A DNA stretch of 46,508 bases from a virus. This document shows positions 13,194-36,082 of this stretch, in pieces. The notes beneath the pieces are model-generated. The model searched no databases, was not told the origin of the DNA, and saw only the letters and a program-made list of their open reading frames with translations. The DNA is taken from positions 1 to 46,508 of the IMG/VR virus record IMGVR_UViG_3300032315_000791; one strand, 5' to 3'. The translations under genes and the position numbers were made by a program. Every line of letters starts with the position of its first letter. Within the stretch, counting starts at the first letter, position 1.

Positions 13194-13194
13194 T

Positions 13195-13365
13195 ATGAAG
13201 AAAGCTAAAATAAGTCAGCAACAAGAACAGCAAAAACACAAAAGAGCATTAAAAGCAGCTAAAAGAAGAAAAGCTTTTAATAGACTAAAAGAACAATGGA
13301 AGTTGGGGATAGGATTATATGAAACATATACGCAAGAAGAGCGTGATAAGTCTGATAAGTTATGA
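13195..13365 (+). CDS. Small basic helical protein, 56 aa
   Basis: Short gene starting one base after the stop of the GT2 gene (TGA-T-ATG). MKKAKISQQQEQQKHKRALK, then AAKRRKAFNRLKEQWKLG and a charged tail ending ERDKSDKL. It is one long Lys/Arg/Gln-rich helix, with no hydrophobic segment. It fills an otherwise empty 125-base gap and overlaps the next gene by 47 bases in a different frame. Codon choice is like the neighbours. No family recognised; could bind nucleic acid or a transferase. Confidence 0.5.
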   Translation: MKKAKISQQQEQQKHKRALKAAKRRKAFNRLKEQWKLGIGLYETYTQEERDKSDKL

Positions 13366-15245: not shown

Positions 15246-15560
15246 GTGTCAGAATATGACTTTGGATTTGTATCTCCACCACAAAATGGAAAAGGTATAA
15301 AAGTAACAGTAAATCAATTTAGAAACCAATGGTATGTTCATCTAAGAGAGTACATGGAAGATCAAGATGAAGGCACATGGTTTCCAACTAAAAAAGGTAT
15401 TGCTATTAAAGCCGAATATGTAGATATACTAGCATATATATTTACCGATGCAGGAAGGCTACTAACTCAACTGTATTACGATGAGATAGCGGGGATAGTA
15501 ACTGAGAAGCAATTAGACTTATTTGAGGATGTAAACGATGAACGTAAGAGTTTGGGATAA
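15246..15560 (+). CDS. PC4/p15-like ssDNA-binding protein (tentative)
   Basis: Protein of 104 aa. Starts GTG directly after the preceding TGA; no in-frame ATG is near. Residues about 18-60 read KVTVNQFRNQWYVHLREYME, DEGTWFPTKKGIAIKAEYVD, ILAYIF. This is the PC4 fold pattern: beta strands with a (V/I)-x-(I/L)-R-x-(Y/F)-x-(D/E) stretch, a (K)PTKKG(I/V)xL segment and a helix. PC4-like proteins bind single-stranded DNA and act as transcription coactivators or at replication. A C-terminal tail of 35 residues is acidic. The gene begins a block of DNA-binding genes. Confidence 0.6.
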   Translation: MSEYDFGFVSPPQNGKGIKVTVNQFRNQWYVHLREYMEDQDEGTWFPTKKGIAIKAEYVDILAYIFTDAGRLLTQLYYDEIAGIVTEKQLDLFEDVNDERKSLG

Positions 15561-15864
15561 AGAAGAAGAGGAAGAACTAGTAAAGCTCTACTGCAATGAT
15601 GGTATGGAAGTGCTAGATATTGCAGAGTATTTTGGAAAAAATAATAGAAGTATAATTAGTAAACTAGTACAGCTTAAGGTATATAAAAAGCCTGAAGTAG
15701 ACAAGAGTGGTAAACGCAGCGTAAAGAGCATGATAATAGATCTAGAACACATGCTGGACATAACACTGGACGGAGTAAACTTGTCAAAAAAATCTAATCT
15801 GGAAATACTGGTAGACGCGGTAAAACTTCGTTTTGAGCAAAGCACTCTGCAGAATAAAAATTAA
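15538..15864 (+). CDS. HTH protein (Myb-like single domain), 108 aa
   Basis: Ribosome site GAGGAT lies before ATG 15538. Residues about 4-50: VWDKEEEEELVKLYCNDGME, VLDIAEYFGKNNRSIISKLV, QLKVYKKP. The layout W-(S/D)-x-EEExxLxxLYxxGxxxxDIAxxxGKxxxSIxxKLxxLKVY is a helix-turn-helix domain of Myb/SANT type common in phages. The C-terminal half has the helical IIDLEHMLDITL and a KSNLEILVDAVKLR segment, perhaps for dimerisation. Very similar domains occur in 16064-16750. Role: DNA binding, site unknown. Overlaps the PC4-like gene by 23 bases. Confidence 0.7.
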   Translation: MNVRVWDKEEEEELVKLYCNDGMEVLDIAEYFGKNNRSIISKLVQLKVYKKPEVDKSGKRSVKSMIIDLEHMLDITLDGVNLSKKSNLEILVDAVKLRFEQSTLQNKN

Positions 15865-15963: not shown

Positions 15964-15992
15964 TTGCTAAGTTGATCTTGTTTTGATAGATT
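15964..15992 (+). promoter_or_regulatory. Promoter for the four-HTH protein (tentative)
   Basis: TTGCTA (15964-15969), 17-bp spacer ending TGA, TAGATT (15987-15992): an extended -10 with a moderate -35, 72 bases before ATG 16064. Supports separate expression of that gene. Confidence 0.45.
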
Positions 15993-15999
15993 AAATGAA

Positions 16000-16020
16000 G
16001 TTGTTGAGAGACAACTCAAC
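16000..16020 (+). promoter_or_regulatory. Two overlapping small hairpins in the 16064 leader
   Basis: GTTGT / ACAAC (16000-16004 with 16011-16015) and GTTGAG / CTCAAC (16003-16008 with 16015-16020) share bases and cannot form together. They lie in the leader transcribed from the promoter at 15964. A regulatory switch or operator is possible; chance is also possible. The rest of the 199-base gap (15865-16063) shows nothing else clear. Confidence 0.3.
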
Positions 16021-16063
16021 AGTAATAAAACTGAACCTAACAATATATAGAGGATTATAAAAA

Positions 16064-16750
16064 ATGGCAAAATTTGAATACACAGAAGAAATGGTAGCAC
16101 GTATGGAAACAGCTTGCGCTAATGGCGTAACTGAGGAAATTATCGAACAGCTTTGCGCTGAGTTCGAGTTCCCACGTCGCTCAGTCACTGCTAAGCTACG
16201 CAAGCAGGGCTTTGACGTTCCACACAAGCCAAAAGCTGCTCCAACTTTCACTGAATCTGAGACCGAAGAACTACGCGAGTTCCTAGAAGCAAACGACGGC
16301 ACGCACACTGCTGAAGAAATCGCCGAAGCAATTGCTGACGGTAAGTTCACCGCTCGCCAAATCAATGGCAAGGCTCTTAGCCTAGAACTAACCGGCGCTA
16401 TCAAGCCAGCAGAAAAGAAAACTGCTCCACGTACCTACTCTGCAGAAGAAGAAGCCCGCATTTCCGAGCTAGTGGAAGGGGGTGCTTTCATTGAGGATAT
16501 CGCTGCAGAACTAGATAAAACTGTTCAACAAATCCGTGGAAAACTACTTTCCATGAAAATGACAGCCCCACAGCGCGACAAGAAAACTGCTAAAACTGAC
16601 GCGTATGAAGGCATCGAAGAAATGGCTGCAAACAGCACTGTTGCTGAATTGGCTGCTCACTTCGACAAGAGCGAGCGCGGTGTTAAGACTGTTCTTTCTC
16701 GTCGTAAACTTTCTGCAAAAGACTACACACCAAAGTCCGTTGCTGAGTAA
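16064..16750 (+). CDS. Four-repeat HTH DNA-binding protein
   Basis: Protein of 228 aa with four helical units of about 45-50 residues: residues 4-52 (FEYTEEMVARMETACANGV, RRSVTAKLRKQGFDVP), about 60-115 (FTESETEELREFLEANDGTH, ARQINGKALSLELTG), about 122-165 (YSAEEEARISELVEGGAF, QQIRGKLLSMKM) and about 175-225 (GIEEMAANSTVAELAAHFDK, GVKTVLSRRKLSA). Units share (Y/F)(T/S)xEEExxxxELVxxGxxxxDIAxxLxKxxxxIxxKLxxxK, also seen in the protein at 15538. Base composition is far more GC-rich than the neighbours (two 60-base lines counted by eye: 45% and 53%), suggesting codon optimisation for high expression. Own promoter and strong terminator. Probably an abundant DNA-binding or genome-organising protein; function unproven. 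Confidence 0.7.
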   Translation: MAKFEYTEEMVARMETACANGVTEEIIEQLCAEFEFPRRSVTAKLRKQGFDVPHKPKAAPTFTESETEELREFLEANDGTHTAEEIAEAIADGKFTARQINGKALSLELTGAIKPAEKKTAPRTYSAEEEARISELVEGGAFIEDIAAELDKTVQQIRGKLLSMKMTAPQRDKKTAKTDAYEGIEEMAANSTVAELAAHFDKSERGVKTVLSRRKLSAKDYTPKSVAE

Positions 16751-16764
16751 TTAAAGTTATGTAG

Positions 16765-16797
16765 GGAGGCAACTAGTTAGTTGCCTCCTTATTTTTT
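16765..16797 (+). terminator. Strong terminator after the four-HTH gene
   Basis: Perfect 10-bp stem GGAGGCAACT / AGTTGCCTCC (16765-16774 with 16779-16788), AGTT loop, then TTATTTTTT. Located 15 bases after the stop at 16750. Confidence 0.92.
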
Positions 16798-16807
16798 GAG
16801 AGAGCAT

Positions 16808-17125
16808 TTGAACACAGATAGTTATTTCTATCTACATGAACTAGAAGATGAAGTTTTAAACGAAATCTTACAACTACCATTTGAAGAGCTAGATAGTTAT
16901 ATCTATGCTCTTATTTGTCGTTTCTACTCTAATATTCCAAAAGGCAGTGATAGGTATGTTAAGATGTCAAATGCTTATAAGTCTAGTTTCATACTAGAAA
17001 AGCTATATAGAAGTAATCCTATGTTGCACGAAAACTATACTGCAATCTACACTAAAACAGGTCTCATACGAGAGATAGTAAATGACTTATATGCAATAGG
17101 AACAGAAAAGGTTGCAATACATTAA
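16808..17125 (+). CDS. Hypothetical protein, 105 aa
   Basis: Not recognised. Start TTG 16808 is preferred (GAGAGAG just upstream); earlier TTG codons lie in the terminator stem or tail. Reads (M)NTDSYFYLHELEDEVLNEIL and is helical and acidic in the first half, with LPFEELDSYIYALICRFYSN, then GSDRYVKMSNAYKSSFILEK, and a C-terminal helix. The start is uncertain: no ATG occurs before about residue 51. The gene lies alone between two terminators. Confidence 0.5.
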   Translation: MNTDSYFYLHELEDEVLNEILQLPFEELDSYIYALICRFYSNIPKGSDRYVKMSNAYKSSFILEKLYRSNPMLHENYTAIYTKTGLIREIVNDLYAIGTEKVAIH

Positions 17126-17135
17126 AAAATTTATC

Positions 17136-17164
17136 TTGCCAGGTGCTAGTTTTTATGCTAACAT
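17136..17164 (+). promoter_or_regulatory. Promoter for 17199-17972 and helicase
   Basis: TTGCCA (17136-17141), 17-bp spacer ending in TGC, TAACAT (17159-17164): extended -10. Predicted start near 17171, inside the terminator hairpin 17166-17192. Confidence 0.55.
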
Positions 17165-17165
17165 T

Positions 17166-17198
17166 AACCCATCATTAACATTTTGATGGGTTTTATTT
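17166..17198 (+). terminator. Terminator hairpin overlapping a promoter start
   Basis: Stem AACCCATC / GATGGGTT (17166-17173 with 17185-17192), 11-base loop, TTATTT tail ending directly at ATG 17199. It stops transcripts of 16808-17125; transcripts from the promoter at 17136 would start inside its left arm and escape it. Confidence 0.75.
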
Positions 17199-17972
17199 AT
17201 GGCAAAAGCAGTTACTACTAAAGAAAAAGAAGAGATTCCAGAAGCTAAAATCAGGCAAGTTATCTGGATGATTAAGTCTGGTAAAACCAAGAAGGCTTGT
17301 TGCGAGCACCTAGGTATCGCATATAACACTACTAGACTTACTAAGATTATTGAGGATTTTAGGGCAAAAGAACAACGCGTCAAAGACCTCAAAGAAAAAG
17401 CTAAGACCATGGAGATCACTCCAGCCATCCGTAAACAAATAGCAACTAGCTATATAAACGGAGAAGCCCAGAGTGCTATTGCGACTAGATATTACATATC
17501 GCCGCAAAAAGTAAAAAGCATTCTTATGGAAATGAATGTGCCTATTAGGGCACGGGCTAAGAATGCCGCAGCTAAAACAGAACATATCGTACAAGATCTA
17601 GATGTAAAGTTCAGTGTGAACGATAGGGTTTTTTACGGCCCTGAAAATGCGTTTGCTATTATTACTGAAGTCTACGACGAAGAATATGCAGAACAATTAC
17701 GTCAGGGAAGGCAGCGATGGGTAGAGCTGTTTCCTTGGACAGAAAAAAGTAAACACCCAGAACCAGTTTTAGATATTCATTACCAAATCTATTGGGAGCT
17801 TGAGGACGGCTCTCAATGGAAGTTAGAATCTTTAAAAAACCATATCAAACGAGTGGAAGATATTATTGCTGAAACTGGCAGAGAAACGTATGGCGTATGG
17901 GTTGATACAGACTACGCCTTTAAGAAAACATTCGTCCCAAGATCAGATTTATTCCCGGTGGTACATAAATAA
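17199..17972 (+). CDS. Two-HTH DNA-binding protein
   Basis: Protein of 257 aa. Two helix-turn-helix-like units: about residues 15-50 (RQVIWMIKSGKTKKACCEHL, GIAYNTTRLTKIIEDF) and about 75-115 (RKQIATSYINGEAQSAIATR, YYISPQKVKSILMEMNVP). The C-terminal 120 residues are a separate beta-rich domain (VNDRVFYGPENAFAIITEVY, HYQIYWELEDGSQWKLESLK) with many aromatics, not recognised. It has its own promoter, ends 2 bases before the helicase gene, and may bind an origin or regulate the replication operon; that is inference. Confidence 0.65.
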   Translation: MAKAVTTKEKEEIPEAKIRQVIWMIKSGKTKKACCEHLGIAYNTTRLTKIIEDFRAKEQRVKDLKEKAKTMEITPAIRKQIATSYINGEAQSAIATRYYISPQKVKSILMEMNVPIRARAKNAAAKTEHIVQDLDVKFSVNDRVFYGPENAFAIITEVYDEEYAEQLRQGRQRWVELFPWTEKSKHPEPVLDIHYQIYWELEDGSQWKLESLKNHIKRVEDIIAETGRETYGVWVDTDYAFKKTFVPRSDLFPVVHK

Positions 17973-17974
17973 TA

Positions 17975-19354
17975 ATGGCAATTGATATTCAAAAATCATC
18001 AATCAGGAGACTCTTAGATACTCAAAGTACTGACTTCTACAATAAGTTAGTAAACAAATTCTTTACTGATACAAACTTAATTCTGTTTAAGAAGATTCAA
18101 AAGTTCTACGAACAGCACATGCGTATCCCAACTACGCAAGAGTTTTATGAACTACAGAAAAGCGGACATACTAGAGAGTATCTAGAATCCCAAATCCTTA
18201 CAGAAACAGCAAAGGCACAAGAGCTTTCTAGTGAGTTCCTGGCTGAGCAGCTACAAGACTACTATATTAGAGAAGAGACAATAACCTGGCTAGATAATTT
18301 TATTGGTCAGCTAGAATCACTTGAGCGTACTGAAATTATTGATAAGATTCAGACGCACATACTAGACTTGCATAAGTATATGCCAGACGGTGAAGAACTA
18401 TTTGACGTAGCTAAAATAGATCTTACACAAGACGGGGAACGTTTTGTTACTTTTACTAGCGGTCTTTCTGCTGAGTATGACGCTGTTAACGGAGGTTTTG
18501 GCCTTCAAGAACTTATCATGTTTGGTGGCCGTAGAGGTTCTGGTAAATCAATTATCACACTCAATGCTGCTAAGCATCAGTTCTTAAACAACAATAACTC
18601 AGTTGCATTTTTCTCTATTGAAATGCGCTTTGTAGAAGTATATTATCGACTTATGAGTATGCTCAGCGGAGTTCCGTTTATGAGGTTCTTTAAAAATGAG
18701 CTGACTCAAGCTGATAAACTAGTAATAGCTAAGACAAAGATTGATACGTTCTATGAGAAATGCGATGAAGGTGTAGCTTTGTATGACAAACTTATCAAGG
18801 ACGGAAACGTAAAAGACTTTGACTTTGCTTTAAAGAGCGGAAGAGTGCCTTTTAAAGCTAAGCGTTTTCACATCATCGACGATGTTAACCTGTCAATTCC
18901 TAAAATTGACCACTATCTTAACATGCTAACAAAGAAATACGATGTTCGTGCTACAGTAGTAGATTATCTAAACATTATCAAAGTTGAAGATAGGATGGAT
19001 TGGAAAAGCCAGATTGGGTTAGCTGATAGTTTAAAAGTGTTAAGCCGTAAATACGATCAGATGGTTATTAGCCCCTATCAGATTGATGCTACTGGTGAAG
19101 CACGATTTGCTAAAGGTGTTCTAGACTCAGCAGATAGAAGCTTTAGGTTTACTCCAGCAGACCTAAATGAGGATCCAAATATTCTACCGTTTGAAATTAC
19201 TAAGATTCGTAACGGTAAAAGCATGAAATTTGATGTGCACATAGATTGGGAATGCCTAAGAGTTATACCAGAAAAAAGCACTGAGGTAATTGGCGGTAAG
19301 ATTTTAAACAAGTATGGAAACGACACTAAAGAAAGTGTAGGCGATTTAGGATGA
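17975..19354 (+). CDS. DnaB-like replicative helicase
   Basis: Protein of 459 aa. N-terminal helical domain (about 1-150) with FEEQHMRIPTTQEFYEL-type segment (DQE-rich), then the RecA-like core: Walker A GGRRGSGKSIITLNAAK near residues 183-195, SVAFFSIEMRFVEVYYRLMS (motif H1a with Glu and Met), HIIDDVNLSIP, Walker B TVVDYLNIIK, and QIDATGEARF (H3/H4 region). A 5'-3' hexameric helicase at the fork. Followed by a 4-base ATGA overlap with the heptose-kinase-like gene. Belongs with the primase and PolA downstream. Confidence 0.88.
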   Translation: MAIDIQKSSIRRLLDTQSTDFYNKLVNKFFTDTNLILFKKIQKFYEQHMRIPTTQEFYELQKSGHTREYLESQILTETAKAQELSSEFLAEQLQDYYIREETITWLDNFIGQLESLERTEIIDKIQTHILDLHKYMPDGEELFDVAKIDLTQDGERFVTFTSGLSAEYDAVNGGFGLQELIMFGGRRGSGKSIITLNAAKHQFLNNNNSVAFFSIEMRFVEVYYRLMSMLSGVPFMRFFKNELTQADKLVIAKTKIDTFYEKCDEGVALYDKLIKDGNVKDFDFALKSGRVPFKAKRFHIIDDVNLSIPKIDHYLNMLTKKYDVRATVVDYLNIIKVEDRMDWKSQIGLADSLKVLSRKYDQMVISPYQIDATGEARFAKGVLDSADRSFRFTPADLNEDPNILPFEITKIRNGKSMKFDVHIDWECLRVIPEKSTEVIGGKILNKYGNDTKESVGDLG

Positions 19355-20241: not shown

Positions 20242-20602
20242 TGGGTTTGTTAAGAAAGGCTGGGGATATGAGTATATATTTGCCACAAATGATTTGTATT
20301 GTGGCAAGCTTTTACACTTTTATAAAAAAGGTAATAAGTTCTCTATGCACTTCCACGCTCAGAAAGATGAGAGCTGGTATGTAACCAACGGTAGTTTTAT
20401 ACTAAGACTGTTGGATCACAGGGACGCAACTGTAAAAGAATGTGTACTAAATAAAGGCGATAGTATTAGAATCTATCCTCTTACAATGCACCAAGTAGAG
20501 GCACTAGAAGATGATAGTGAGTTGTTTGAAGTAAGCACTGCCGACTCTGATGAAGATAATTATAGAGTAAGACCCGGAGATAATCAAGTTGCACGAGATT
20601 GA
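20219..20602 (+). CDS. Cupin sugar-isomerase-like protein
   Basis: Protein of 127 aa, a single cupin beta-barrel. KGWGYEYIFATNDLYCGKLL, then HFHAQKDESWYVTNGSFILR, whose two His and Glu form the metal site, GDSIRIYPLTMHQVEALED with the third His, and FEVSTADSDEDNYRVRPG. This WGYExW-x-NDLYCGKxL/HxHxxKDExxYV/GDxIxIxPxTxH layout is the small mannose-6-phosphate-isomerase-like group found next to heptose and other nucleotide-sugar genes. Likely isomerises a phosphosugar. It follows the sugar kinase by overlap and the primase starts inside its last 14 bases. Confidence 0.72.
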   Translation: MSNVTRFSGFVKKGWGYEYIFATNDLYCGKLLHFYKKGNKFSMHFHAQKDESWYVTNGSFILRLLDHRDATVKECVLNKGDSIRIYPLTMHQVEALEDDSELFEVSTADSDEDNYRVRPGDNQVARD

Positions 20603-21476
20603 ACAGGTTCTTATTGATAGAGGTATGGAGTATAAGATAAACCCAAATAACCCATACGAAATTAATTTGAAATGTTTTAGCGGTGAGCATGAAGATACTA
20701 ATCCAAGTTTGTCTTACAACCTTGAAAAGGGAGTATTTAATTGTTTTGCGTGCGGTTTCAAAGGGGATACTACCAAGCTCATGAAAGAACTTGGTATTAT
20801 TTTTACTGTTGAGCCTCTATCCAAGCAAGGCTTTAAGATAAAAAGACTTCAAAAAAAGTTAGAAGATCTTCGTGGAGATAAACCTGTATTTATGCCCGAA
20901 CCTAGGTTTCCAGTAAAACATTCTTTTAAAGGTATCAGTCAAAGCACACTAACTAAGTTTGGTGCGTTTATGACTACTCACGATAGTATGGATGATTATA
21001 TATGTATACCCGTACATCAAAGTGGTAAGTTAAAGTTCATAGAAGGTAGACACACTCTTCTAAATACAAAAAACTTATCAATGCCTAAATATATGCGTAG
21101 ACCTGCAGGAGCTGATGTAAGTTCTGTGTTGTATCCTTTAGACGTTGTAAAAGATTTTACTCAAGTAATTCTAGTAGAAGGAATATTTGATGCCTTAAAT
21201 ATGCACGATATGGGATACTCTAGCACTCTGTGCATATTTGGTACTAACAATTTTAATGCAGGTAAAGCTAAACTACTAGACGAGTACGGATGTAGGCATG
21301 TAATAATCATGATGGACGGAGATAGTCCCGGTAGGCAAGCAGCTGTCAAGATACAAAAGCTTCTATCTCAGCGTTCTATACACACCTCAATAATTAATAT
21401 GGAAGATGGCAAAGACCCTGGTTCTATCGACGAGATGGAAGCAGAGGCCTATTTATCTGAATTTCTTGTTGACTAA
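20589..21476 (+). CDS. DNA primase (DnaG-type, CHC2 + Toprim)
   Basis: Protein of 295 aa. Starts at TTG 20589; GGAGAT lies 9 bases upstream and the residues just after fit the usual N-terminal helix. Zinc-binding module: Cys in NLKCFSGEHED with its His, then the CFAC pair (GVFNCFACGFKGD). Toprim domain: VILVEGIFDALNMHD (Glu) and HVIIMMDGDSPGRQAA (DxD). No helicase domain, since a separate helicase is encoded. Makes RNA primers for PolA. The promoter of polA is embedded in its 3' end. Confidence 0.88.
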   Translation: MHEIEQVLIDRGMEYKINPNNPYEINLKCFSGEHEDTNPSLSYNLEKGVFNCFACGFKGDTTKLMKELGIIFTVEPLSKQGFKIKRLQKKLEDLRGDKPVFMPEPRFPVKHSFKGISQSTLTKFGAFMTTHDSMDDYICIPVHQSGKLKFIEGRHTLLNTKNLSMPKYMRRPAGADVSSVLYPLDVVKDFTQVILVEGIFDALNMHDMGYSSTLCIFGTNNFNAGKAKLLDEYGCRHVIIMMDGDSPGRQAAVKIQKLLSQRSIHTSIINMEDGKDPGSIDEMEAEAYLSEFLVD

Positions 21477-21527: not shown

Positions 21528-23774
21528 ATGAAACTAGCAATCGTACTAAGTTCACCATTAAAAAATAACATTCCAGCCTTATTTAGAGAATATGCTGGTA
21601 ATATTAAGTTTGAGACAATCTATCTAAGTTCAGAACCTAGAGAGAAAATTCTAAAGAAAGACGTAGATCTAACTATGTCTGTTCTTGATGAGTTTGATGT
21701 GGTGTGCCCTATCGGGGCAGAACCTCTTAAATATGTGTGCGGTCTTACAGGTATTACTAAGTACAACGGTATAGTTGTAAAAGAAAAGTATTTACCTATC
21801 CTAGACCCAAACATGACATTTATCAAACCACAGTATCGTGATGACATTCAAAAGGCGTTTGATCGTCTGAAAAAACTTATTAATGGCGAAGAGGCTATCG
21901 CACATGAGAAGAAGTACCATCACTATACAGATGAACTAGAGTTTCTACCATACCTACGTAAACTGCAGGATCCTGAAGTTAAAGTAATTTCAGTCGATAC
22001 TGAAACTACCTCGCTATCTTCACGCAAAGGTAATATTCTAGGCTTTGTGTTTAGTACGGCAGCCCATGAAGGTGTATATGTAGACGCACACATCATCGAA
22101 CATTACTATGATGAGTTTGAGGAAATATTCAGAACTAAGAAGTGCGTGTTTCACAACAGCAAGTTCGATATTCAATTCATTCGCTATGAGTTTGGGTTTG
22201 ACTTCCCAGACTTTGAAGACACTATGCTTATGCACTACTGCTTGGATGAGAGTGTAGGTACTCACGGTCTAAAAGCTCTAGCACTAAAGTTTACTGATCT
22301 TGGTGACTACGAACGTGAACTTGACGAGTACAAAAAGAATTGGTGCCGTCAACACAAGATCAAGCTAGAAGATTTTAATTATGGAATGCTTCCTCCAGAG
22401 ATTCTGGCTCCTTACGGTTGTAAGGACGGGGATGCCACTATGCAGCTATTCCAAAAGTTCAGCCCTAAGATTTGGGGCAGCAAGGAATTTACTAAGCTGT
22501 ATGAGACGATTCTAAAACCAGTAACGCGCGCTATCATTCATATTGAGAATAATGGCGGCCCTATTGATATGAACGTGCTAGATGATCTAATTGAAGATTA
22601 CAAGATTGACATTGAAGAGACCCTACATGAACTTGCTTTTCATCCAGCAGTTCAAGAGTTTGAAGATAGCCAAGGCAAGACTTTCAATCCTAACAGCGTA
22701 TTTCATCTACGTGAAATCCTGTTCAATATTCTCAAGCTTAAACCTATCAAGAAAACTGATACCGGCGCATTCAGCACAGATGCAGAAGTTCTTGAGAGTT
22801 TAAAGCATCCTATTACAGAGGCGATCCTTGATCTACGTAAGAAAGTAAAACTTAGCCAGACCTACCTAAAGAATATTCGTGAAGGTCTTGATAAGGATAA
22901 TCGTCTTCGCAGTAGCTTTAACGTTACTGGTACTACCAGTGGTCGACTAAGCTCTAGCGGTGTTTTGAATTATCAGAACCTTCCTCGTGATAAAGATGCG
23001 GGTATCAAAAAAGTGTTCAAGGCCCGTCCTGGATACAAGATCATTCAGGCCGACCTTGGTACTGCCGAAGTGTATATTGCTGCAGCATTGAGTAATGATA
23101 AGTTTTTACAACGAGCTTTCATCGAGAAGATGGACTTCCACTCGTATGTTGCTAAGAACATGTTTAAACTTACTTGCTCTGTTGATGAAGTAAAGAAACT
23201 TTATCCTAACGAACGTCAGTGGGCAAAAGCTATTACGTTCGGTATTCTTTATGGTGCTGGACCTAGTAAAATTGCTGAAACTGCTAATGTTACTATGGAA
23301 GAAGCTAAAGACTTTATTCAAAAATACTTCAAAGAGGCCAATGCTCTTAAGCGTTGGATTGATACATGCCTTGGCATGATTAACTCAAGCTACTTTATCT
23401 ACAGTGCTTTTGGCCGTAAGAGAAGACTTCCAGAAGCTAAAGCCGATAATCGTGCAACAGCAACTCACGCTGCTCGAAGCGGCCTAAACTTCCTAGTGCA
23501 GAGCGTTGCCAGTGATGTTAACCTACTAGGACTGATTGACACGATCGACTGGATTGAAAAAAATAGTCTCAAAGATAAGATCGTTGTGTTTGCAACAGTA
23601 CACGACTCTGTTGTTGCAGAAGTGGCAGATGAATATGTAGATGAGTATGTGCGACAGCTAAAATCAAATCTACAAAAAGACCGTGGCGTTAATATTGCTA
23701 ACTGTCCTATCGTTGTAGACGTAGAAATTGGTACGTCGTGGGGAGAACTGTATCCATATGAAGGCCCGCAGTAA
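21528..23774 (+). CDS. DNA polymerase I (family A)
   Basis: Protein of 748 aa. N-terminal domain (about 1-145) of unknown fold, then a 3'-5' exonuclease: SVDTETTSLSS (Asp157, Glu159), KCVFHNSKFDIQFI and APYGCKDGDATM. Polymerase: motif A IIQADLGTAEVYIAAAL (Asp near 508, Glu), motif B RQWAKAITFGILYGAG near 563-578 with Lys and Tyr, motif C VHDSVVAEV near 691. The Tyr at the end of motif B is as in T7 and other phage enzymes, allowing dideoxynucleotides. No 5'-3' exonuclease domain is fused; a separate FEN gene is at 35231. Codons are more GC-rich than the sugar genes. Confidence 0.95.
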   Translation: MKLAIVLSSPLKNNIPALFREYAGNIKFETIYLSSEPREKILKKDVDLTMSVLDEFDVVCPIGAEPLKYVCGLTGITKYNGIVVKEKYLPILDPNMTFIKPQYRDDIQKAFDRLKKLINGEEAIAHEKKYHHYTDELEFLPYLRKLQDPEVKVISVDTETTSLSSRKGNILGFVFSTAAHEGVYVDAHIIEHYYDEFEEIFRTKKCVFHNSKFDIQFIRYEFGFDFPDFEDTMLMHYCLDESVGTHGLKALALKFTDLGDYERELDEYKKNWCRQHKIKLEDFNYGMLPPEILAPYGCKDGDATMQLFQKFSPKIWGSKEFTKLYETILKPVTRAIIHIENNGGPIDMNVLDDLIEDYKIDIEETLHELAFHPAVQEFEDSQGKTFNPNSVFHLREILFNILKLKPIKKTDTGAFSTDAEVLESLKHPITEAILDLRKKVKLSQTYLKNIREGLDKDNRLRSSFNVTGTTSGRLSSSGVLNYQNLPRDKDAGIKKVFKARPGYKIIQADLGTAEVYIAAALSNDKFLQRAFIEKMDFHSYVAKNMFKLTCSVDEVKKLYPNERQWAKAITFGILYGAGPSKIAETANVTMEEAKDFIQKYFKEANALKRWIDTCLGMINSSYFIYSAFGRKRRLPEAKADNRATATHAARSGLNFLVQSVASDVNLLGLIDTIDWIEKNSLKDKIVVFATVHDSVVAEVADEYVDEYVRQLKSNLQKDRGVNIANCPIVVDVEIGTSWGELYPYEGPQ

Positions 23775-24264
23775 GTTTTACAGTATAGAGTTCCCCATAT
23801 TTGGACTAAAGCGTAAGCCATATGACTTTTCTATACGATTAAACTCTATCAGCATAAAGAAAAAAGAAACAGACGATTGGCATGTAGTTGACGAGTACAA
23901 AGAAAAAACATCTTTACTAAAACGTTATGTTTCTGTTAAAGATGATTTTTTCTTTTTTGACTACACCTGCACTAACCTAACTCAACTTATTTCTAAAAAT
24001 ATAGAGTGGGGTATTGACGCAAACGCTAAGATATATGATATGCGTCAGAAACAAAAATTTAAAGCAAGGACAGTACAGGTAGTAAAAGTAAGAGACAACC
24101 TAATATGGGTAAGCACAGTAAGCTATCCGTTTAAATTATCAAAAAACATATTAGACACTAAAACTATACTAGAGCAGTATATAACTATTGTATATATTGA
24201 TGAGGTGTGGCATTTATACAGATTCTCAAGTTTTAACGAGCCAGTACATGAATTAATATTATGA
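23758..24264 (+). CDS. Hypothetical protein, 168 aa
   Basis: Not recognised. Starts MKARSKFYSIEFPIFGLKRK at ATG 23758, overlapping the end of polA by 17 bases. Alternating Tyr/Phe/Ile strands (FFFFDYTCTN, LIWVSTVSYPFKLS) and a basic middle region (RQKQKFKARTVQVVKVR). No membrane segment or catalytic motif. Ends in an ATGA overlap with the UvsW-like helicase, so it probably serves replication or recombination. Confidence 0.55.
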   Translation: MKARSKFYSIEFPIFGLKRKPYDFSIRLNSISIKKKETDDWHVVDEYKEKTSLLKRYVSVKDDFFFFDYTCTNLTQLISKNIEWGIDANAKIYDMRQKQKFKARTVQVVKVRDNLIWVSTVSYPFKLSKNILDTKTILEQYITIVYIDEVWHLYRFSSFNEPVHELIL

Positions 24265-25565
24265 ACAGCAAAGTTAAGTATACCGTCAAAAAAGCTACAA
24301 TATCTGACAAGATATACTTTCATAAATCAGATCTAGTAGACATAGACCTGCATACGCTAAGATATGTATTGTTTACTTATAATCTTGTAGAATCTTTTCA
24401 CTCTACTATAGACTATAATGAGGAAACAGGTATGTGTAGCGTACCTAGCGGGGCTTGGCACAAGCTAAATATACTAGAGCTAACGGATACTAGATTTGTT
24501 GCTGACAAGCAAGATTGGACCTTTAACGGAGCGTTAAGACCTTCACAGCAAGAGACAGTAGATAAGCTACTTACAGAAGATAAACTTTATAGCGGCCTCA
24601 TACAAGCTCCTTGTGGCTGGGGTAAGACTTTTGCAGGCACTTATATAGTAGGTACTTATAAAAAACCTACTCTCATTGTATGCCACACCAAGCTGCTTGC
24701 AGAGCAGTGGCATAAAGAACTAAAAACATTAATCTCTGGAACAGAGATTGGTTTTATAGGTGACGGTAGAGAAGTTATAAAACCTATAACTGTTGGAATA
24801 TATAAAAGCCTAATAAAGAGACTAGATAAAATACAAGATACTTTTGAAGTTATGTTTGTTGATGAAGCACACCTATGTCCCGCCGATATGTTTGGGAGAG
24901 TAGTAAATGGAATTAATGCAAAAGTAAAGATAGCACTGAGCGCTACTCCTTGGAGAAAAGACGGTCTACATGTAATACTGCCAGATTATTTTGGTCCTAA
25001 TAAAGTTATTGCAAAAGATACTTCTAAGCTGATTCCTAGCGTAGAAATAGTCAAGACATCTATACCTTTTCCTATAATAAATCCTAATAGAGACTGGACT
25101 AAACAATTAACTAAGCTAGGAACTAATACTGCTTACCTAAATTTAATATCTGCTCACGCAAGAGACAAAATAGCTTCTGGTAGATGTTTATTAATTTTAA
25201 GTGAAAGAATAGACATGTTAGAGCAGCTAAAAACTCTAATACCCAATAGTATACTTTTGGTAGGAGCTACTAAAAATAGAGACGACATACTAAATAATGC
25301 AGGCATAAAATATAGCGCTATACTTACAACAAAAATATTTGATGAAGGTATAAGTTGTCATCGCTTAGATACTATATATTTTACTTGCCCAAATAATAAT
25401 GCAGCTAAGTTAGAACAAAGAATTGGCAGAATACAGAGAGAGCATCCAGATAAAAAATCACCTCTTATTGTAGATTTTTGGCTATCCGGCGCAATAGTAC
25501 AAGCCCAACAGAGAAATAGATTAGAATGGTACATAAGAAACAACTTTCCCACACTAAACGTTTAG
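24261..25565 (+). CDS. UvsW-like DEAH helicase (SF2)
   Basis: Protein of 434 aa. N-terminal region of about 95 residues, LRPSQQETVDKLL (Q-type motif), Walker A QAPCGWGKTFAGT near residue 118, motif II FVDEAHLCPADMF (DEAH) near 200, motif III ALSATPWRKDG near 226, motif V region ILTTKIFDEGISCHRLDTI and motif VI QRIGRIQREH. T4 UvsW-type helicases unwind branched DNA and switch origin-dependent to recombination-dependent replication. The following gene overlaps its end by 40 bases. Confidence 0.88.
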   Translation: MNSKVKYTVKKATISDKIYFHKSDLVDIDLHTLRYVLFTYNLVESFHSTIDYNEETGMCSVPSGAWHKLNILELTDTRFVADKQDWTFNGALRPSQQETVDKLLTEDKLYSGLIQAPCGWGKTFAGTYIVGTYKKPTLIVCHTKLLAEQWHKELKTLISGTEIGFIGDGREVIKPITVGIYKSLIKRLDKIQDTFEVMFVDEAHLCPADMFGRVVNGINAKVKIALSATPWRKDGLHVILPDYFGPNKVIAKDTSKLIPSVEIVKTSIPFPIINPNRDWTKQLTKLGTNTAYLNLISAHARDKIASGRCLLILSERIDMLEQLKTLIPNSILLVGATKNRDDILNNAGIKYSAILTTKIFDEGISCHRLDTIYFTCPNNNAAKLEQRIGRIQREHPDKKSPLIVDFWLSGAIVQAQQRNRLEWYIRNNFPTLNV

Positions 25566-27175: not shown

Positions 27176-27623
27176 GATAATACAGTTTAATTGGTATGAA
27201 TTAAATAGTATAACTAGAATTCCCGACAGTCAAGTTATACTTATGTTCTGCCTTTTTATTAACAAAAGTAATCCGTTAGTTCCTCGTATAGCTGGCAGTC
27301 ATCAAATACTACAGAAAAAACTAAACATAGGTAATAACTACTATGCGTTAATACATAGTAAGCTGATATTAGAGAGTAAAAACGGTATTTTTTCTAACTT
27401 TCGATGTGAAGAGCCACAGAGTTACCTGACAAACTCTTCTTTTCTACATTCAAAAACTTCACCATATTTAAAATCAGAATACCTATATATTCTGTCACAG
27501 CGTAACCTAGGTAATAAAAACTGCTGGATACCTGAAAATTACGTAGAGACTGAATGCTGGAAAAATCCCTTTATTACACACAACAAATCAAAATTAAATT
27601 TCACACTGGAGAAACAACTATGA
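27174..27623 (+). CDS. Hypothetical protein, 149 aa
   Basis: Not recognised. MIIQFNWYELNSITRIPDSQ at ATG 27174, without a good ribosome site. Contains the hydrophobic VILMFCLFINK, a Ser/Asn-rich middle, and a C-terminal half with a YLYILSQRNLGNKNCW segment. The start codon lies in the -10 of the ssb promoter, so it could be expressed only from upstream transcripts, or start at a later codon. Overlaps ssb by 4 bases (ATGA). May be an early untranslated or weakly translated frame. Confidence 0.4.
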   Translation: MIIQFNWYELNSITRIPDSQVILMFCLFINKSNPLVPRIAGSHQILQKKLNIGNNYYALIHSKLILESKNGIFSNFRCEEPQSYLTNSSFLHSKTSPYLKSEYLYILSQRNLGNKNCWIPENYVETECWKNPFITHNKSKLNFTLEKQL

Positions 27624-28288
27624 CAACTAAAGCAATAGGTCGCGATTGGTCACAACTAAAAAAGCCACAGAGTGGCGGAGGAGATCGTACTGAGATTGTA
27701 CGTATCAAACTAGATAAAGATAGTACTAAGGTAAGAATTATCGGCAACGTTATGCCTAGGTATGTTCGTTGGGTAGTAACTAATGAAGGCAAAAAGCACC
27801 CACTAGAGTGCCTAAGCTTTGATAGGGATGCCGAAGAGTTCAATAATGCCCGTGATCCTTTTCGTGAACTAGATGAAGCTGTTTATGGCGAAAAACCACA
27901 GTTTGCCTATGTAGTTAATGTTATTGACCGCGCCGACGGTAAGCTAAAGCTTATGGATCTGAAAACCACTATCTTCAAGCAGATTATTGATTATGCTCGT
28001 GACCCTGATTACGGATCACCAGCAGACGAAGATAACGGATACGACGTAACAATACGCAAAGAAAAGACTGGCCCACTACCTCAGAACGTAAAGTATAGTG
28101 TAATGCCTAGCCGTAGCACTGTGCCTCTAACAAGTGCTGAAAAGGCAATTGAGATGTATAACTTAGATTCTATTTTCAAACGTCAGACCTATGAAGAACA
28201 GAAAAAGTGGCTACTAGAGAATACCTCACTGTTTACTGAAGAAACAGCAGAAGACCTAAGAAGCACTGAAAGCATGGAAGATCTATAA
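27620..28288 (+). CDS. Single-stranded DNA-binding protein (gp32-like)
   Basis: Protein of 222 aa from ATG 27620; GGAG lies about 9 bases upstream, and an in-frame start 22 codons earlier has none. Order: charged N-terminal cooperative region, core with EIVRIKLDKDSTKVRIIGNV, PRYVRWVVTNEGKKHPLECL, PQFAYVVNVIDRADGKLKLM, then TTIFKQIIDYARDPDYGSP, a helix with aromatic residues, and an acidic tail (ENTSLFTEETAEDLRSTESM). This matches T4 gp32-type SSBs, acidic C-terminus binding replication partners. No CxxC-type zinc site is seen. The codons are GC-rich, indicating high expression. Confidence 0.8.
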   Translation: MTTKAIGRDWSQLKKPQSGGGDRTEIVRIKLDKDSTKVRIIGNVMPRYVRWVVTNEGKKHPLECLSFDRDAEEFNNARDPFRELDEAVYGEKPQFAYVVNVIDRADGKLKLMDLKTTIFKQIIDYARDPDYGSPADEDNGYDVTIRKEKTGPLPQNVKYSVMPSRSTVPLTSAEKAIEMYNLDSIFKRQTYEEQKKWLLENTSLFTEETAEDLRSTESMEDL

Positions 28289-29172
28289 TGACGAAGAAGA
28301 AACTATCCGATATACACTCAGATGAGGGGCAGGACAAACCTGCCCCAAAGCCATTAAATCTACCGGCAGGATTTAAATCTGTTGACGGCGATAAAATAGA
28401 AGTAAATCTAGATTATCTAAGAACTTTAAATGTATTTTTTGCTACTCCTTGCTATGGCGGCCTTGTAACAGACCAATATTTTTTGAGTATGTTTAGGCTA
28501 AGTCAAGCTCTAATGCAATACGGTATTAAATTTAGAATTACGACTCTTAGGAATGAGAGTCTTATACCGAGAGCAAGAAATATACTAACAGCCATGTTTC
28601 TAGAAGATCAAAGTTCTACTCACCTAATGTTCATTGACGCCGACATAGAATTTGACCCTGAGAGCGTTATACGCATGTTAGCTATGGATAAGGATGTAAT
28701 TGCGGCTGCCTACCCAAAGAAAACTATAAATTGGGGTATGGTAAAAGCTGCTGCGCAAAGAGGTGAAGATAACTTAGCTACTTTTGGTGCAGACTACGCC
28801 ATTAACTTAAAAGTAGAACCAGGCACAAATCGAGTTAGATCTCATATGGGCGCAGTTGAGGTACTAGATGCTTCTACGGGTTTCTTCCTAGTAAAAAAAG
28901 AAGTAGTACAGAAGATGGCTAAGCATCACCCAGAACTTCACTATAGGAATGATAGCTCTATAGATCCTAAATTTAATCCTCATTGTTATGCTCTTTGGGA
29001 TACAATGATAGATCCAAAAGATAGACGTTATCTGAGCGAAGATTATACTTTTTGCAGACGTTGGCAAGATATGGGTGGAGAAATATGGGTAGACCCTAAC
29101 ACCAAATTAAGTCATGTAGGAAGTTATACTTTTGAAGGAAACCTAAACAACTTACTAAGACCGGGACCATGA
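28288..29172 (+). CDS. GT-A glycosyltransferase in the replication operon
   Basis: Protein of 294 aa. N-terminal 40 residues are linker-like. NVFFATPCYGGLVTDQYFLS, RITTLRNESLIPRARNIL, THLMFIDADIEFDPESVIRM (D-x-D near residue 113), VIAAAYPKK, LDASTGFFLVKKEVV, SEDYTFCRRWQDMGGEIWV and LSHVGSYTF. It is the phage-typical GT2-like family (FFATPCYGG...NESLIxRARN...FIDADI). Overlaps ssb at 28288 and sbcD by 4 bases. Placement inside the replication block suggests a DNA- or replication-linked acceptor, but that is inference. Confidence 0.82.
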   Translation: MTKKKLSDIHSDEGQDKPAPKPLNLPAGFKSVDGDKIEVNLDYLRTLNVFFATPCYGGLVTDQYFLSMFRLSQALMQYGIKFRITTLRNESLIPRARNILTAMFLEDQSSTHLMFIDADIEFDPESVIRMLAMDKDVIAAAYPKKTINWGMVKAAAQRGEDNLATFGADYAINLKVEPGTNRVRSHMGAVEVLDASTGFFLVKKEVVQKMAKHHPELHYRNDSSIDPKFNPHCYALWDTMIDPKDRRYLSEDYTFCRRWQDMGGEIWVDPNTKLSHVGSYTFEGNLNNLLRPGP

Positions 29173-30131
29173 AAATACTTAGCGTAGCTGATATACATAT
29201 AAATCTCCATAAGAAAAAAATACCATACGACTGGCAAGTTAATAGGTTTACTAAACTATTTAATAAATTGCTTGATCTAGAAAAAGACTGTGACGTAACT
29301 GTCATATCTGGAGATATTTTTGACAAGAAGCCAGAACCAGATGAGATTTGCTTGTTTCTCAGCTACGCTAATGCAGTAAAAAAACCAACATTGGCTATAC
29401 CTGGAAATCATGAAGCATCTACTAAAGGTAAGAGTTTTTTAGAATACTTTGAGCAAGAGAATGTAATAAACAACGATAACTTTTATCTGTCTACTGCTAA
29501 TAAGAGAATTGTTATAAACGGTCAAGGATTTCAGTTATTTCCTTATGGAGAAATGCAAACTAAAAACATACCTGAGTACGTAAAAGGCGACATACTAGTA
29601 ACTCACATACGTGGAGAGGTGCCGCCGCACATAACTCCAGAGTTTGATTTTGAAAAGATAAGACAATGGCAGTTAGTATTACTTGGAGACTTACACTTTA
29701 ATCATAAATATAAAGACTATCCAGTATATTATCCGGGCAGTCCACTAAATACAACCTTTGACAGAGATGACAGACGAGAGTATGGTGTAGACATTATAAA
29801 GTTAAATAGCGATACAGATTATGCCGTAGAGTTTGTAAACTTAAAACTACCCAAGCTTGTTAGAAAAACAGTAGAGGCTGGAACAGAACTAAAATCAGAT
29901 CCTATAAATCATGTAGTATATGAAGTGACAGGCAGTATTGATAAGTTAAGTAAAGTTCAAAGTCATGAGCTTCTAGACAAGAAAATAGCAGATAAGCCAC
30001 AAGAAAACTCTAAATTAAATCTAGTTAACAAGACGCTTCCCGAAGAATTAACTATGTATCTAGATTTTATAAAGATCAACAATAAAGAAGAAGTTCTTCA
30101 ACTGTTCGGCAGCCTAGGGATAAAAATATGA
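29169..30131 (+). CDS. SbcD/Mre11-like nuclease subunit
   Basis: Protein of 320 aa. Calcineurin-type metallophosphoesterase: motif I SVADIHINLH, motif II VISGDIFDKKP, motif III AIPGNHEAST, motif IV LVTHIRGEVPP (His), motif V GDLHFNHKYKDYPVYYPGS. Binds the SbcC ATPase encoded next (4-base ATGA overlap). Cleaves hairpins and processes DNA ends in T4 gp47/T5 D12 fashion. C-terminal 100 residues are the partner-binding region. Confidence 0.92.
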   Translation: MKILSVADIHINLHKKKIPYDWQVNRFTKLFNKLLDLEKDCDVTVISGDIFDKKPEPDEICLFLSYANAVKKPTLAIPGNHEASTKGKSFLEYFEQENVINNDNFYLSTANKRIVINGQGFQLFPYGEMQTKNIPEYVKGDILVTHIRGEVPPHITPEFDFEKIRQWQLVLLGDLHFNHKYKDYPVYYPGSPLNTTFDRDDRREYGVDIIKLNSDTDYAVEFVNLKLPKLVRKTVEAGTELKSDPINHVVYEVTGSIDKLSKVQSHELLDKKIADKPQENSKLNLVNKTLPEELTMYLDFIKINNKEEVLQLFGSLGIKI

Positions 30132-31957
30132 GTGTAGTATTAAAACGATTATCATTTAGCAATATGTTTAGTTATGGGTCTAACAACGTATTAGAGCTAA
30201 GCAACACTCCTATCACACAACTACTAGCTAGTAACGGCAGCGGTAAAAGTTCTTTAGCAATTATAATACAGGAGTTACTGTACAATAAAAATATAAAAGG
30301 TCTAAAGAAATCTGACATCTTAAATAGATACTCCAAGGCAAAAAACTGGGAAGGTAAGATAGAGTTTAGCGTAGAAGGTACTGAGTATGAAGTAATTAGT
30401 AAACGTTCTGGTGCTAGTACCCATGTAACTCTGTTGAAAGATGGAAAAGACGTAAGTGAGCATAAAGTATTAGACACTTATAAAAAGATTGCAGATATCA
30501 TTGGTAGAGATTTTGAAACATTTAGTCAACTAACCTATCAGAGTAGTACAGATAGCCTAGAGTTTCTTAAAGCTACTGACACCAATCGTAAAAAATTCTT
30601 AGTAAACCTATTTAACTTTTCCAGATACCTAGAAATAGGCGACGAACTTAAGGTAATACAATCCGCAAAGGAAAAAGAATTAGCCTCCAAATCTGGAGAG
30701 CTAAAAACAGTAGTGGATTTTATAGCTAAGAATGTAATACCTGATAAAGCAGTAGAGCAAAAGGTACCTGAGGTAGATACTAGTTTATACAGCAAGATTG
30801 AAGAACTGAAAAACAAACTAGCACAAGAGAAGAGCATCTGCGATAAGATAGATAGGAATAATCTTAACATTGAAGAACGGAACCGTTTAAAATTTAATCT
30901 ATCTCTAGAAGAACCGATACTAGTAGACAATTTACTAACGGACATAGAACTAGTAAAGTCTAGCATAACCAGATATGAAACAGCAGTAAACAATGCAAAT
31001 AGGGATTTAAAATCTCTTGATACTTCAGATCACTGTTATGCTTGTAAGCAGGCCATTGACAACTCAAGATCAGTATCTCTAAGTGAAACCTTAAGAAATA
31101 ATATAGTTGAATTAACAGTAAATGTTATAAGCAACAAAAAACGTTTAGCAGAGCTAACAACTGAATTATCAGAATATTCAAAAGCTAAAACTGCATTTGA
31201 ACAAAATCAACGAGCAATTGATAAGTTCACTCAGCTATCACAAGTAATAGATCCAGATCTACCAAAAGAATATCCAGATTACAAAGCAATTCAAAACGAA
31301 TTAAAAGATTGCGAAAAAGAACTAGCTTGGCAAGAAAAAGAAAATTCAGATGTACGTAAGCACAACGATAGTGTTAAGATAAGAAACGCCAAAATAGATG
31401 GCCTAGTAGAGCAACTTAGAGATTTTAAAGCTCGACAAGAACTACTAAATGATGATATAATTAAACTTCAGGATGAGGTAGCAAACATAGCTATACTCAG
31501 AAAAGCCTTCTCTACTAGTGGTATAGTTGCATACAAACTAGAAAATGTTGCAAAACAGCTAGAAGATAATATCAATCATTATCTAGCATTGCTTAGTGAC
31601 GGACAGTTTCAAGTTATTTTCAGACTTACTGGAGATAAACTAAACGTTGTAGTAGTAAATAATGGTGAAGAAGTCAGTATTGACTCTTTATCTGGTGGCG
31701 AGTTCTCTAGAGTTCAAACCTCTGTACTGTTAGCAGTAAGAGGTACATTATCTAATATAGGCGGTAAGAGCATAAACTTGTTGTTCCTAGATGAAATAAC
31801 AGGAGTTCTAGATGAGCCCGGAAAAGAAAGACTATTCGAAGTCCTGCAAGATGAGAAAGATTTAAATGTGTTTCTTATCTCTCATGACTATTCGCACCCA
31901 CTTATACCACGGATTGAGATAGCTAAAACAAACAATATTAGCTCTATCAATAGCTGA
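30128..31957 (+). CDS. SbcC/Rad50-like ATPase
   Basis: Protein of 609 aa. Walker A ASNGSGKSSLAII near residues 34-46, coiled coil (about 170-470), the zinc-hook C-Y-A-C near residue 302 (DHCYACKQAI), ABC signature SLSGGEFSRVQTS near 518-530, Walker B NLLFLDEITGVLDEPG near 552, and the SHDYSH switch. Length is half that of E. coli SbcC because the coil is short, as in T4 gp46. With SbcD it makes a DNA-end processing complex. Stop codon lies in the loop of the hairpin 31942-31971. Confidence 0.93.
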   Translation: MSVVLKRLSFSNMFSYGSNNVLELSNTPITQLLASNGSGKSSLAIIIQELLYNKNIKGLKKSDILNRYSKAKNWEGKIEFSVEGTEYEVISKRSGASTHVTLLKDGKDVSEHKVLDTYKKIADIIGRDFETFSQLTYQSSTDSLEFLKATDTNRKKFLVNLFNFSRYLEIGDELKVIQSAKEKELASKSGELKTVVDFIAKNVIPDKAVEQKVPEVDTSLYSKIEELKNKLAQEKSICDKIDRNNLNIEERNRLKFNLSLEEPILVDNLLTDIELVKSSITRYETAVNNANRDLKSLDTSDHCYACKQAIDNSRSVSLSETLRNNIVELTVNVISNKKRLAELTTELSEYSKAKTAFEQNQRAIDKFTQLSQVIDPDLPKEYPDYKAIQNELKDCEKELAWQEKENSDVRKHNDSVKIRNAKIDGLVEQLRDFKARQELLNDDIIKLQDEVANIAILRKAFSTSGIVAYKLENVAKQLEDNINHYLALLSDGQFQVIFRLTGDKLNVVVVNNGEEVSIDSLSGGEFSRVQTSVLLAVRGTLSNIGGKSINLLFLDEITGVLDEPGKERLFEVLQDEKDLNVFLISHDYSHPLIPRIEIAKTNNISSINS

Positions 31958-34705: not shown

Positions 34706-35158
34706 ATGACAAACGCAAGTAAGAATAAAGGAAGAGCGTTCGAATACGTAGTCCGAGACAAATTGACTGAGACCTTTAACTCTCAATTTGAGCGGGTTCC
34801 GTTATCGGGCGCTCTTACCTATTTAAAAGGTGATGTGTATCCACCGTGGCTTCCAGACTTTCCATGGACAGTAGAAGCCAAGCACCACAAAGAAGTAGAG
34901 TGGAATAATGTACTAACTGCAAAAACAAGTCTAATACTAGAGTTTTGGGATCAGACAACTAGAGAAGCGCTGGTAATGAAAAAGAAACCTTTACTAATAT
35001 ACAAGTGGGATAGAAGTAAAATTTATGCCTGCTGGTTTGACGATATGGTAAAGACTAGAAATTTTGTACACATAAGATCAGGTACAAGAGAGTTTTATAT
35101 GTCACTACTAGATGACTGGTTGTTAGAGGCATCGCAAGCGTATACCAAGCCTAATTAA
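34706..35158 (+). CDS. PD-(D/E)XK Holliday-junction-resolvase-like endonuclease
   Basis: Protein of 150 aa. ASKNKGRAFEYVVRDKLTET (basic start, Glu of motif I), FERVPLSGALTYLKGDVY (Ser, Gly, Asp of motif II) and WTVEAKHHKEVEW (E-x-K of motif III) are the Hjc/archaeal-type resolvase core: E...D...ExK. It cuts four-way DNA junctions in recombination and packaging; related families include other phage endonucleases. C-terminal half adds a separate region with KKPLLIYKWDRSKIYACWFD. Its own promoter is at 34658. Confidence 0.78.
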   Translation: MTNASKNKGRAFEYVVRDKLTETFNSQFERVPLSGALTYLKGDVYPPWLPDFPWTVEAKHHKEVEWNNVLTAKTSLILEFWDQTTREALVMKKKPLLIYKWDRSKIYACWFDDMVKTRNFVHIRSGTREFYMSLLDDWLLEASQAYTKPN

Positions 35159-35230: not shown

Positions 35231-36082
35231 ATGAGTGTAAGTTGGGACGACCTATCTGACCTGGTTCAGGCAAAAGAACAAGATAATAATGCTGATAACC
35301 TACTGCTAATTGATGGAGTTAACCTAGCTTTTCGTTATCTACAACGTAAAAACTACGATAACTTTAGTGAAGATTATATCCGTACAGTTACCAGCCTAGG
35401 TAAAAGTTACGAAGCAAAAAGAATTATTTGTTGCTTTGACAGTGGTGCCAGTGCGTATCGTAAGGCAATATTTCCAGAATACAAAGACAACCGTAAAGTA
35501 GAGCGTAGCGAAGAAGAACAAGAACGTTTTACAGCTTTCTTCAACTGCCTAAATGATACTATTGACGCCCTTCCGTGCGAGCATTTCAAATTTAAAGGTA
35601 TTGAAGCAGACGATGTTATTGCATACTTTGTAAAAAATCTAAATGATAAATATACCCATACGTGGGTAGTGTCAAGCGACCGAGATCTTTACCAACTTCT
35701 TCGTGATAACGTAAGTATCTTTAATATGTATTCTCGTAAAGAGATCACTATTGATAGCCTACTAGAAACTACGGGCATGACTCCACGTGAATATGCCTTC
35801 TCAAGAATGATTGAGGGCGATACTGGAGACAATATTAAAGGCATTGACGGTATTGGCCCTAAGCGAGCGGCGGAGCTTGTAAAAGAGTATAAAACACTAG
35901 ATAACCTACTTGCATCTCTACCCATCAAAGGTAAAGCTAAGTATATTCAAAATCTCAATGCAGGTGCAGATATTCTTACTAGGAATGAACGACTAATCAA
36001 CTTACTGTCTTACACTTCAGAAGCTATTATGAGCGTAGAGAAACGAGAGACAGTAATTGAACTATTAGAAAAGGCGATTTAA
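35231..36082 (+). CDS. 5'-3' exonuclease / flap endonuclease
   Basis: Protein of 283 aa. LLIDGVNLAFRYLQRK (Asp28), ICCFDSGASAYRKAIFPEYK with the R/K-x-x-x-(Y)-K-x-x-R helical-arch stretch, GIEADDVIAYFV (Glu, Asp, Asp), VSSDRDLYQLL, and EGDTGDNIKGIDGIGPKRAA (Asp, Asp and the helix-hairpin-helix). Full metal set of T5 D15 and T4 RNase H; it removes RNA primers and flaps. PolA has no such domain, so this supplies it. GC-rich codons. Coupled to thyX (TAATG). Confidence 0.93.
   Translation: MSVSWDDLSDLVQAKEQDNNADNLLLIDGVNLAFRYLQRKNYDNFSEDYIRTVTSLGKSYEAKRIICCFDSGASAYRKAIFPEYKDNRKVERSEEEQERFTAFFNCLNDTIDALPCEHFKFKGIEADDVIAYFVKNLNDKYTHTWVVSSDRDLYQLLRDNVSIFNMYSRKEITIDSLLETTGMTPREYAFSRMIEGDTGDNIKGIDGIGPKRAAELVKEYKTLDNLLASLPIKGKAKYIQNLNAGADILTRNERLINLLSYTSEAIMSVEKRETVIELLEKAI

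Follow-up and report, generated by a model that had tools for sequence, protein, structure and literature searches.

Few key proteins of bacteriophage T5 are understood as poorly as D5. The T5 record describes it as a DNA-binding protein that is needed for both replication and late transcription and that has a part in the shutoff of expression, a picture that dates to studies of the late 1970s. In T5, the D5 gene overlaps ligB, and the promoters that serve it lie ahead of ligB. By mass spectrometry, one of the major virion-associated proteins in T5-like Yersinia phage phiR2-01 is the D5 homolog (PMC8624392). The protein has now also been reported as a trigger of retron defense. According to a 2026 preprint, T5 D5 triggers retron-Kva2, one escaper carries mutations in D5, and D5 remodels the retron-Kva2 complex; binding to the msdDNA stem was predicted by AlphaFold3, and the contact with the msdDNA was assigned to one D5 helix-turn-helix (HTH) (PMC13405049).

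D5-like genes in uncultivated viruses

We analyzed a 46.5-kb virus record (the window), whose genes run rightward from about 8 to 37 kb. An open reading frame on the plus strand (16064..16750, ATG to TAA) encodes a protein of 228 amino acids with four tandem HTH units. A Shine-Dalgarno-like GAGG, read directly from the sequence, lies at 16050..16053 (+), 10 nt before the ATG. The preliminary description of this stretch knew no name for the protein, but there is one. The ORF matches PHROG_323 ("transcriptional regulator, D5-like") with an E value of 7.7e-30 over residues 1 to 221, and all 36 aligned relatives match the same family. A tblastn search found 898 phage records, in 895 of which a single place covers 80% or more of the query. 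These are mostly T5-like phages of Vibrio, Salmonella, Escherichia, and Klebsiella, and identity is 36 to 45% in nearly all of the matches listed; they are annotated as D5 protein or late gene transcription factor, and some as sigma 70. T5 D5 itself (T5.118, AAS77164.1) is about 39% identical over the whole length. The family proteins, T5 D5 and other Demerecviridae D5-like proteins among them, share full-length homology with the window protein at 38 to 42% identity in the alignment, as well as the four HTH units and the recognition-helix residues; the window protein differs from T5 D5 in being 27 amino acids shorter. By structure, the window protein matches a Vibrio phage D5 in BFVD (E = 1e-19). 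Judged by its sequence, then, the ORF is a full-length D5 homolog, a real and important gene of a protein family that was already known.

The family extends well beyond the isolated T5-like phages into many uncultivated viruses. Searching IMG/VR with the single protein gave 23 loci at 59 to 96% identity, and searching with the alignment gave at least 158 loci carrying D5 relatives, 80 of which were kept. In bacterial and archaeal genomes there were 16 pattern matches and none was confirmed, so that no host clue emerged. The PDB searched by sequence held no credible relative, DNA-level comparison of the 14- to 34-kb region with phage records returned no match, and an Rfam scan found nothing in the window. 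PADLOC gave weak, chance-like matches only (E > 0.003), and a toxin or defense gene was dropped as an identity for the ORF.

Fold, constraint, and possible function of the four units

We predicted the structure with AlphaFold2 from 36 sequences. The model has twelve helices, three in each of four HTH units (approximately residues 8 to 47, 64 to 106, 127 to 163, and 184 to 213 of the window protein), with a mean pLDDT of 87.6. Values within the HTH blocks are mostly 88 to 96, and the linkers are low-confidence and flexible. With a pTM of 0.38, the units are well predicted and the mutual arrangement of the four is not. Profiles built from sub-alignments of the repeats match in register for repeats 1 and 3, 2 and 3, and 3 and 4 (E = 2e-5 to 4e-5), and for repeats 2 and 4 over 20 columns only; these four comparisons together span 2e-5 to 7e-5, and those of repeat 1 with repeats 2 and 4 are weak. 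The four homologous HTH-like units of the preliminary description are thus borne out both by aligning the repeats and by structure prediction, which shows an HTH in every one of them.

The recognition helices are the conserved part of this protein. Among the 36 relatives, 32 of the 43 recognition-helix positions are invariant, compared to 36 of 185 elsewhere (p = 1.4e-11); with the T5, Vibrio, and Klebsiella proteins added, 21 of the 43 are still invariant (p = 7e-8). Each repeat supplies 6 to 11 of the invariant recognition-helix residues, and none of the four therefore looks degenerate. Strong constraint thus applies to all of the recognition helices. The trigger of retron-Kva2 belongs to the same family, and the HTH recognition helices are what is conserved here; triggering itself was shown for T5 D5 only. 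The recognition helices carry a charge of +2 to +5, while the whole protein is acidic (net charge of -8, pI 5.2), and for that reason a histone-like basic protein was dropped from the candidates.

It is probable, largely by analogy with T5, that this D5, carried by an uncultivated tailed phage within a T5-related replication module, is an abundant double-stranded DNA-binding protein that loads onto phage DNA, supports replication, and drives the early-to-late switch. D5 would be made in large amounts early in infection, and several of its HTH units would bind double-stranded phage DNA together, with avidity arising from four weak contacts, joined by flexible linkers, and not from one specific site. 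The protein may in this manner coat or organize replicating phage DNA and change the template for both replication and host RNA polymerase; DNA replication, the turning-off of early genes, and the start of late transcription could follow, as recorded for T5 D5. The acidity of the protein, which is ill-suited to plain electrostatic coating, counts against this explanation, and at about 39% identity to T5 D5 the function could have drifted. A very abundant chromatin-like or global regulatory protein, as first proposed, fits the T5 record and the codon usage described below; the acidity of the protein calls for caution with the word "chromatin-like" alone.

The main rival is a sequence-specific activator of late genes, one or more of whose HTH units would read a late-promoter site and recruit or redirect host RNA polymerase with no general coating of DNA. 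We regard this as possible, if rather unlikely. Sigma70_r4_2 is matched by 24 of the 36 members (best E = 2e-6), there is a weak match to PHROG_836, "late transcriptional activator" (0.0087), and both nearly invariant recognition helices and an acidic protein agree with such a role; the sigma-70 region 4 matches in some members could point to a more specific promoter function. Yet the sigma region 4 hits are weak ones to a generic HTH, replication also needs D5 according to the T5 record, and four units are unusual in a simple activator. A whole sigma factor was dropped: Pfam scans returned region 4-like and region 3-like HTH matches only, and region 2 was absent, so regions 2 and 4, the pair expected for core RNAP binding, were not found together.

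In the PDB, the model resembles tandem Myb repeats (mini-SNAPc and Reb1), GcrA for repeat 3, and homeodomains for repeat 1, at a level that shows the fold only (Z < 8, Foldseek E > 0.007). Units of these DNA-binding kinds agree with the main reading of D5. The three-helix HTH fold is shared with the GcrA domain, the Myb repeats of SNAPC4 and Reb1, and homeodomains, and Myb proteins likewise carry tandem repeats on linkers; unlike the D5 relatives, however, these proteins resemble the window protein in fold without a convincing sequence match. In the Pfam scan of the D5 relatives, one matches Myb_DNA-binding (6e-4) and none matches GcrA within an E value of 0.01. A Myb- or GcrA-like regulator of host takeover, which would bind host DNA such as host promoters and not phage DNA, would accord with the GcrA DNA-binding domain ranking near the top of the fold matches for repeat 3 (Z = 7.2) and with the mild toxicity of T5 D5 alone to E. 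coli (PMC13405049). We think this very unlikely: by the tool's own warning, Z below 8 may reflect a common arrangement only, the gene sits inside the phage replication module and is conserved with it, and nothing host-specific was found.

Codon choice and the D5 transcription unit

The D5 gene has a GC content of 0.479, compared to about 0.36 around it, in line with the early remark that it is much more GC-rich than its neighbors; relatives average 11.5 points higher. GC is raised at all codon positions. At synonymous third positions, G+C is 0.39, where the remainder of the window would predict 0.25 (z = 4.9), and among window genes this shift is second only to that of the polymerase gene at 21528..23774 (z = 5.7). 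All 13 Arg codons are CGU or CGC, compared to 31% CGY in the flanking genes; AUA is used for none of 11 Ile (50% in the flanks) and UUA for none of 14 Leu (25%). Totals over 21 loci, D5 versus flanks, are 82% versus 28% for CGY, 2% versus 38% for AUA, and 8% versus 36% for UUA. T5 D5 makes the same optimal choice (CGY 12/12, AUA 0/10, UUA 0/19), as does the retrieved portion of the T5 capsid gene (CGY 11/11, AUA 0/3, UUA 0/11), and the D5 genes of the Vibrio and Klebsiella phages have the bias of the window gene. Two relatives, L065 and L072, lack the Arg and Leu bias and still avoid AUA. Codon bias of this type usually signals selection for high translation, and it is no measure of amounts. 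High expression of D5 is supported by codon usage, whose similarity to that of the T5 capsid gene suggests a copy number far above what the specific late-gene activator discussed above would require.

A promoter of the form TTGCTA-N17-TAGATT precedes the gene (15964..15992, +). It matches the consensus at 8 of 12 positions and is conserved in nearly all of 44 leaders: TTGC and T....T boxes stand 57 to 79 nt upstream of the ATG in 42, counted as the bases between the -10 box and the ATG, and the spacer is 17 nt in 43, a length that the scoring favored. A generic promoter scan did not call this site and found no excess of sites over shuffles; we therefore base the call on conservation among leaders, which upholds the earlier claim that the gene has its own promoter. 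A best-score scan chose the wrong promoter at several loci, and the scan was therefore anchored. The anchored rule in turn gave a wrong promoter for L075 and L097, both of which have TATAAT followed by a 10- to 11-bp hairpin. The pattern in the window and its relatives is TTGC-N17-TANNNT, a hairpin, an A-rich leader, and then the Shine-Dalgarno sequence.

The 5'-proximal hairpin of the window, GTTGTTGAG-agacaa-CTCAACAGT, occupies 16000..16023 (+) and starts 8 nt behind the -10 box; other pairings are possible, and the dG is about -10. Nearly all loci have a hairpin of 5 to 11 pairs, 6 to 13 bases behind the -10 box, with a loop of 4 to 10 nt; for L036, L038, and L053 the anchored rule gave a weak hairpin or none. 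In 18 distinct stems the first six pairs all form, while re-dealt 3' arms pair at 56% on average and 76% at most. At least 8 stem sequences are clearly different, and the relatives are not independent. Since the hairpins were chosen by pairing, the fair control is to shuffle each leader: p is at most 0.02 in most loci, and L036, L038, L053, and L007 fail or are marginal. Among other promoter-like sites in the window, only the one at 8612 has such a hairpin, and its T-run makes it terminator-like.

The palindrome lies where transcription of this gene for a multi-HTH DNA-binding protein should begin, and D5 might repress its promoter by using it as a DNA operator. This seems quite improbable to us, for stem sequences are very different from phage to phage although the recognition helices hardly change; both this contrast and the variation in loop length are what an RNA hairpin predicts. 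Pairing that is kept while stem sequence and loop change favors an RNA element over an operator bound by D5. Leaders of the T4 gene 32 and ompA type combine an abundant product with structure near the mRNA 5' end. D5 would share this combination, and a stabilizing effect is our inference: in the simplest reading, the D5 mRNA would start at a strong promoter and fold into a hairpin near its 5' end that most likely guards it from 5'-end-dependent decay.

T4 gp32 controls its own mRNA. By a similar logic, D5 might limit its own synthesis by binding its leader hairpin, as a multi-HTH protein that reads structure and not sequence. We give this idea little credence; it would explain why the hairpin is kept in shape and not in sequence, and, if true, it would tie in with T5 D5 acting on a retron whose msdDNA is a stem-loop.

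An intrinsic terminator begins 10 bases after the D5 stop (16761..16792, +), with a stem of 14 pairs followed by a T-run (dG = -21.9, z = -5.2). The strong terminator first noted with a 10-bp stem is therefore present and somewhat longer than described. By a strict rule, a terminator follows D5 in 32 of 40 relatives, and in most of the 8 missed the stem is strong and the T-run poor. A strong stem and T-run also stand behind D5 in T5, two Vibrio phages, and one Klebsiella phage, which makes the terminator a family feature. In T5 (AY543070), the terminator-like stem and T-run lie at 68078-68130 (L105 1879-1930); no terminator is annotated between D5 and D6 in the T5 GenBank record. In the window, the terminator would separate D5 from the downstream replication genes.

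Unlike the T5 gene, the window gene is monocistronic, with its own promoter and hairpin. No ligB lies directly upstream, and T5-type cotranscription with ligB is not found here; that cotranscription is a T5 arrangement and no defining feature of the D5 protein. The leader is the new, lineage-specific part of this D5: the lineage of the window has given the gene a strongly marked expression unit of its own. Four recognition helices and one leader hairpin thereby become targets for the study of a T5-type late-transcription switch.

The replication module and neighboring genes

As in T5, D5 adjoins the helicase, primase, and polymerase genes, being located in the D-gene replication module before them, and the gene order from the DnaB helicase to the flap nuclease follows that of T5. 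On the plus strand, the module comprises a DnaB-like replicative helicase in the position of T5 D6 (17975..19354), a DNA primase (20589..21476), the DNA polymerase, whose best phage matches are T5-like at about 40%, a helicase in the D10 position (24261..25565), a gp32-like single-stranded DNA-binding protein (27620..28288, approximate start), the SbcD-like subunit D12 (29169..30131), the SbcC-like subunit D13 (30128..31957), a PDDEXK endonuclease or Holliday resolvase-like protein in the D14 position (34706..35158), and the 5'-3' exonuclease/flap endonuclease D15 (35231..36082). Between the DnaB helicase and the primase, sugar kinase-like and small cupin-like genes were seen by eye (19351-20602); they are present in L002 to L005 and absent from the other relatives.

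Two genes lie between D5 and the DnaB helicase. A small ORF after the terminator (16808..17125, +, approximate start) is conserved in relatives and belongs to no family. Behind it is a D2-like gene (17199..17972, +), which is 33% identical to T5 D2 over 109 amino acids and matches PHROG_3611, "helicase" (2e-22). T5 D2 is a helicase (PMC5180179). The preliminary description had a different two-HTH protein in this place. Two HTH-like stretches are indeed present inside, and the protein itself is D2-like. The gene is just after D5 in the window and upstream of D5 in T5. At 17136-17198, before the D2-like gene, there is a promoter-like TTGCCA-N17-TAACAT, followed by an inverted repeat, ACCCATCA...TGATGGGT and TTTTATTT, which may be a terminator or a leader hairpin.

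Upstream, and outside the D5 unit, a gene with a GTG start (15246..15560, +) encodes a protein with a PC4 domain of the single-stranded DNA-binding type (PF02229, 3e-13) that is 33% identical to T5.115 over 57 amino acids. Its end is overlapped by a gene for a single-HTH, Myb/GcrA-like protein (15538..15864, +). A single copy of the D5 unit had been noted in this protein, and its family profile does align to D5 repeat 3 (E = 9e-5); the protein itself matches PHROG_323 (1.7e-6), and one family member matches GcrA (0.0018). The C-terminal half is conserved, with the consensus TVKxMLRxLExxLxIxIEGTNLNKKENL in loci L002 to L104. In nearly all relatives in which both are seen, the single-HTH gene immediately follows the PC4 gene, and the pair stays together, often 2 to 4 kb upstream of D5. 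The two proteins likely form a functional pair.

Further upstream of the replication module, genes resembling those for methyltransferases, epimerases, and glycosyltransferases were recognized by eye (8685-15245), and the last two of this block adjoin the PC4 gene in many relatives. Near the start of the window, at 1843-2865, a protein resembles the UV damage endonuclease UvdE, again by eye only.
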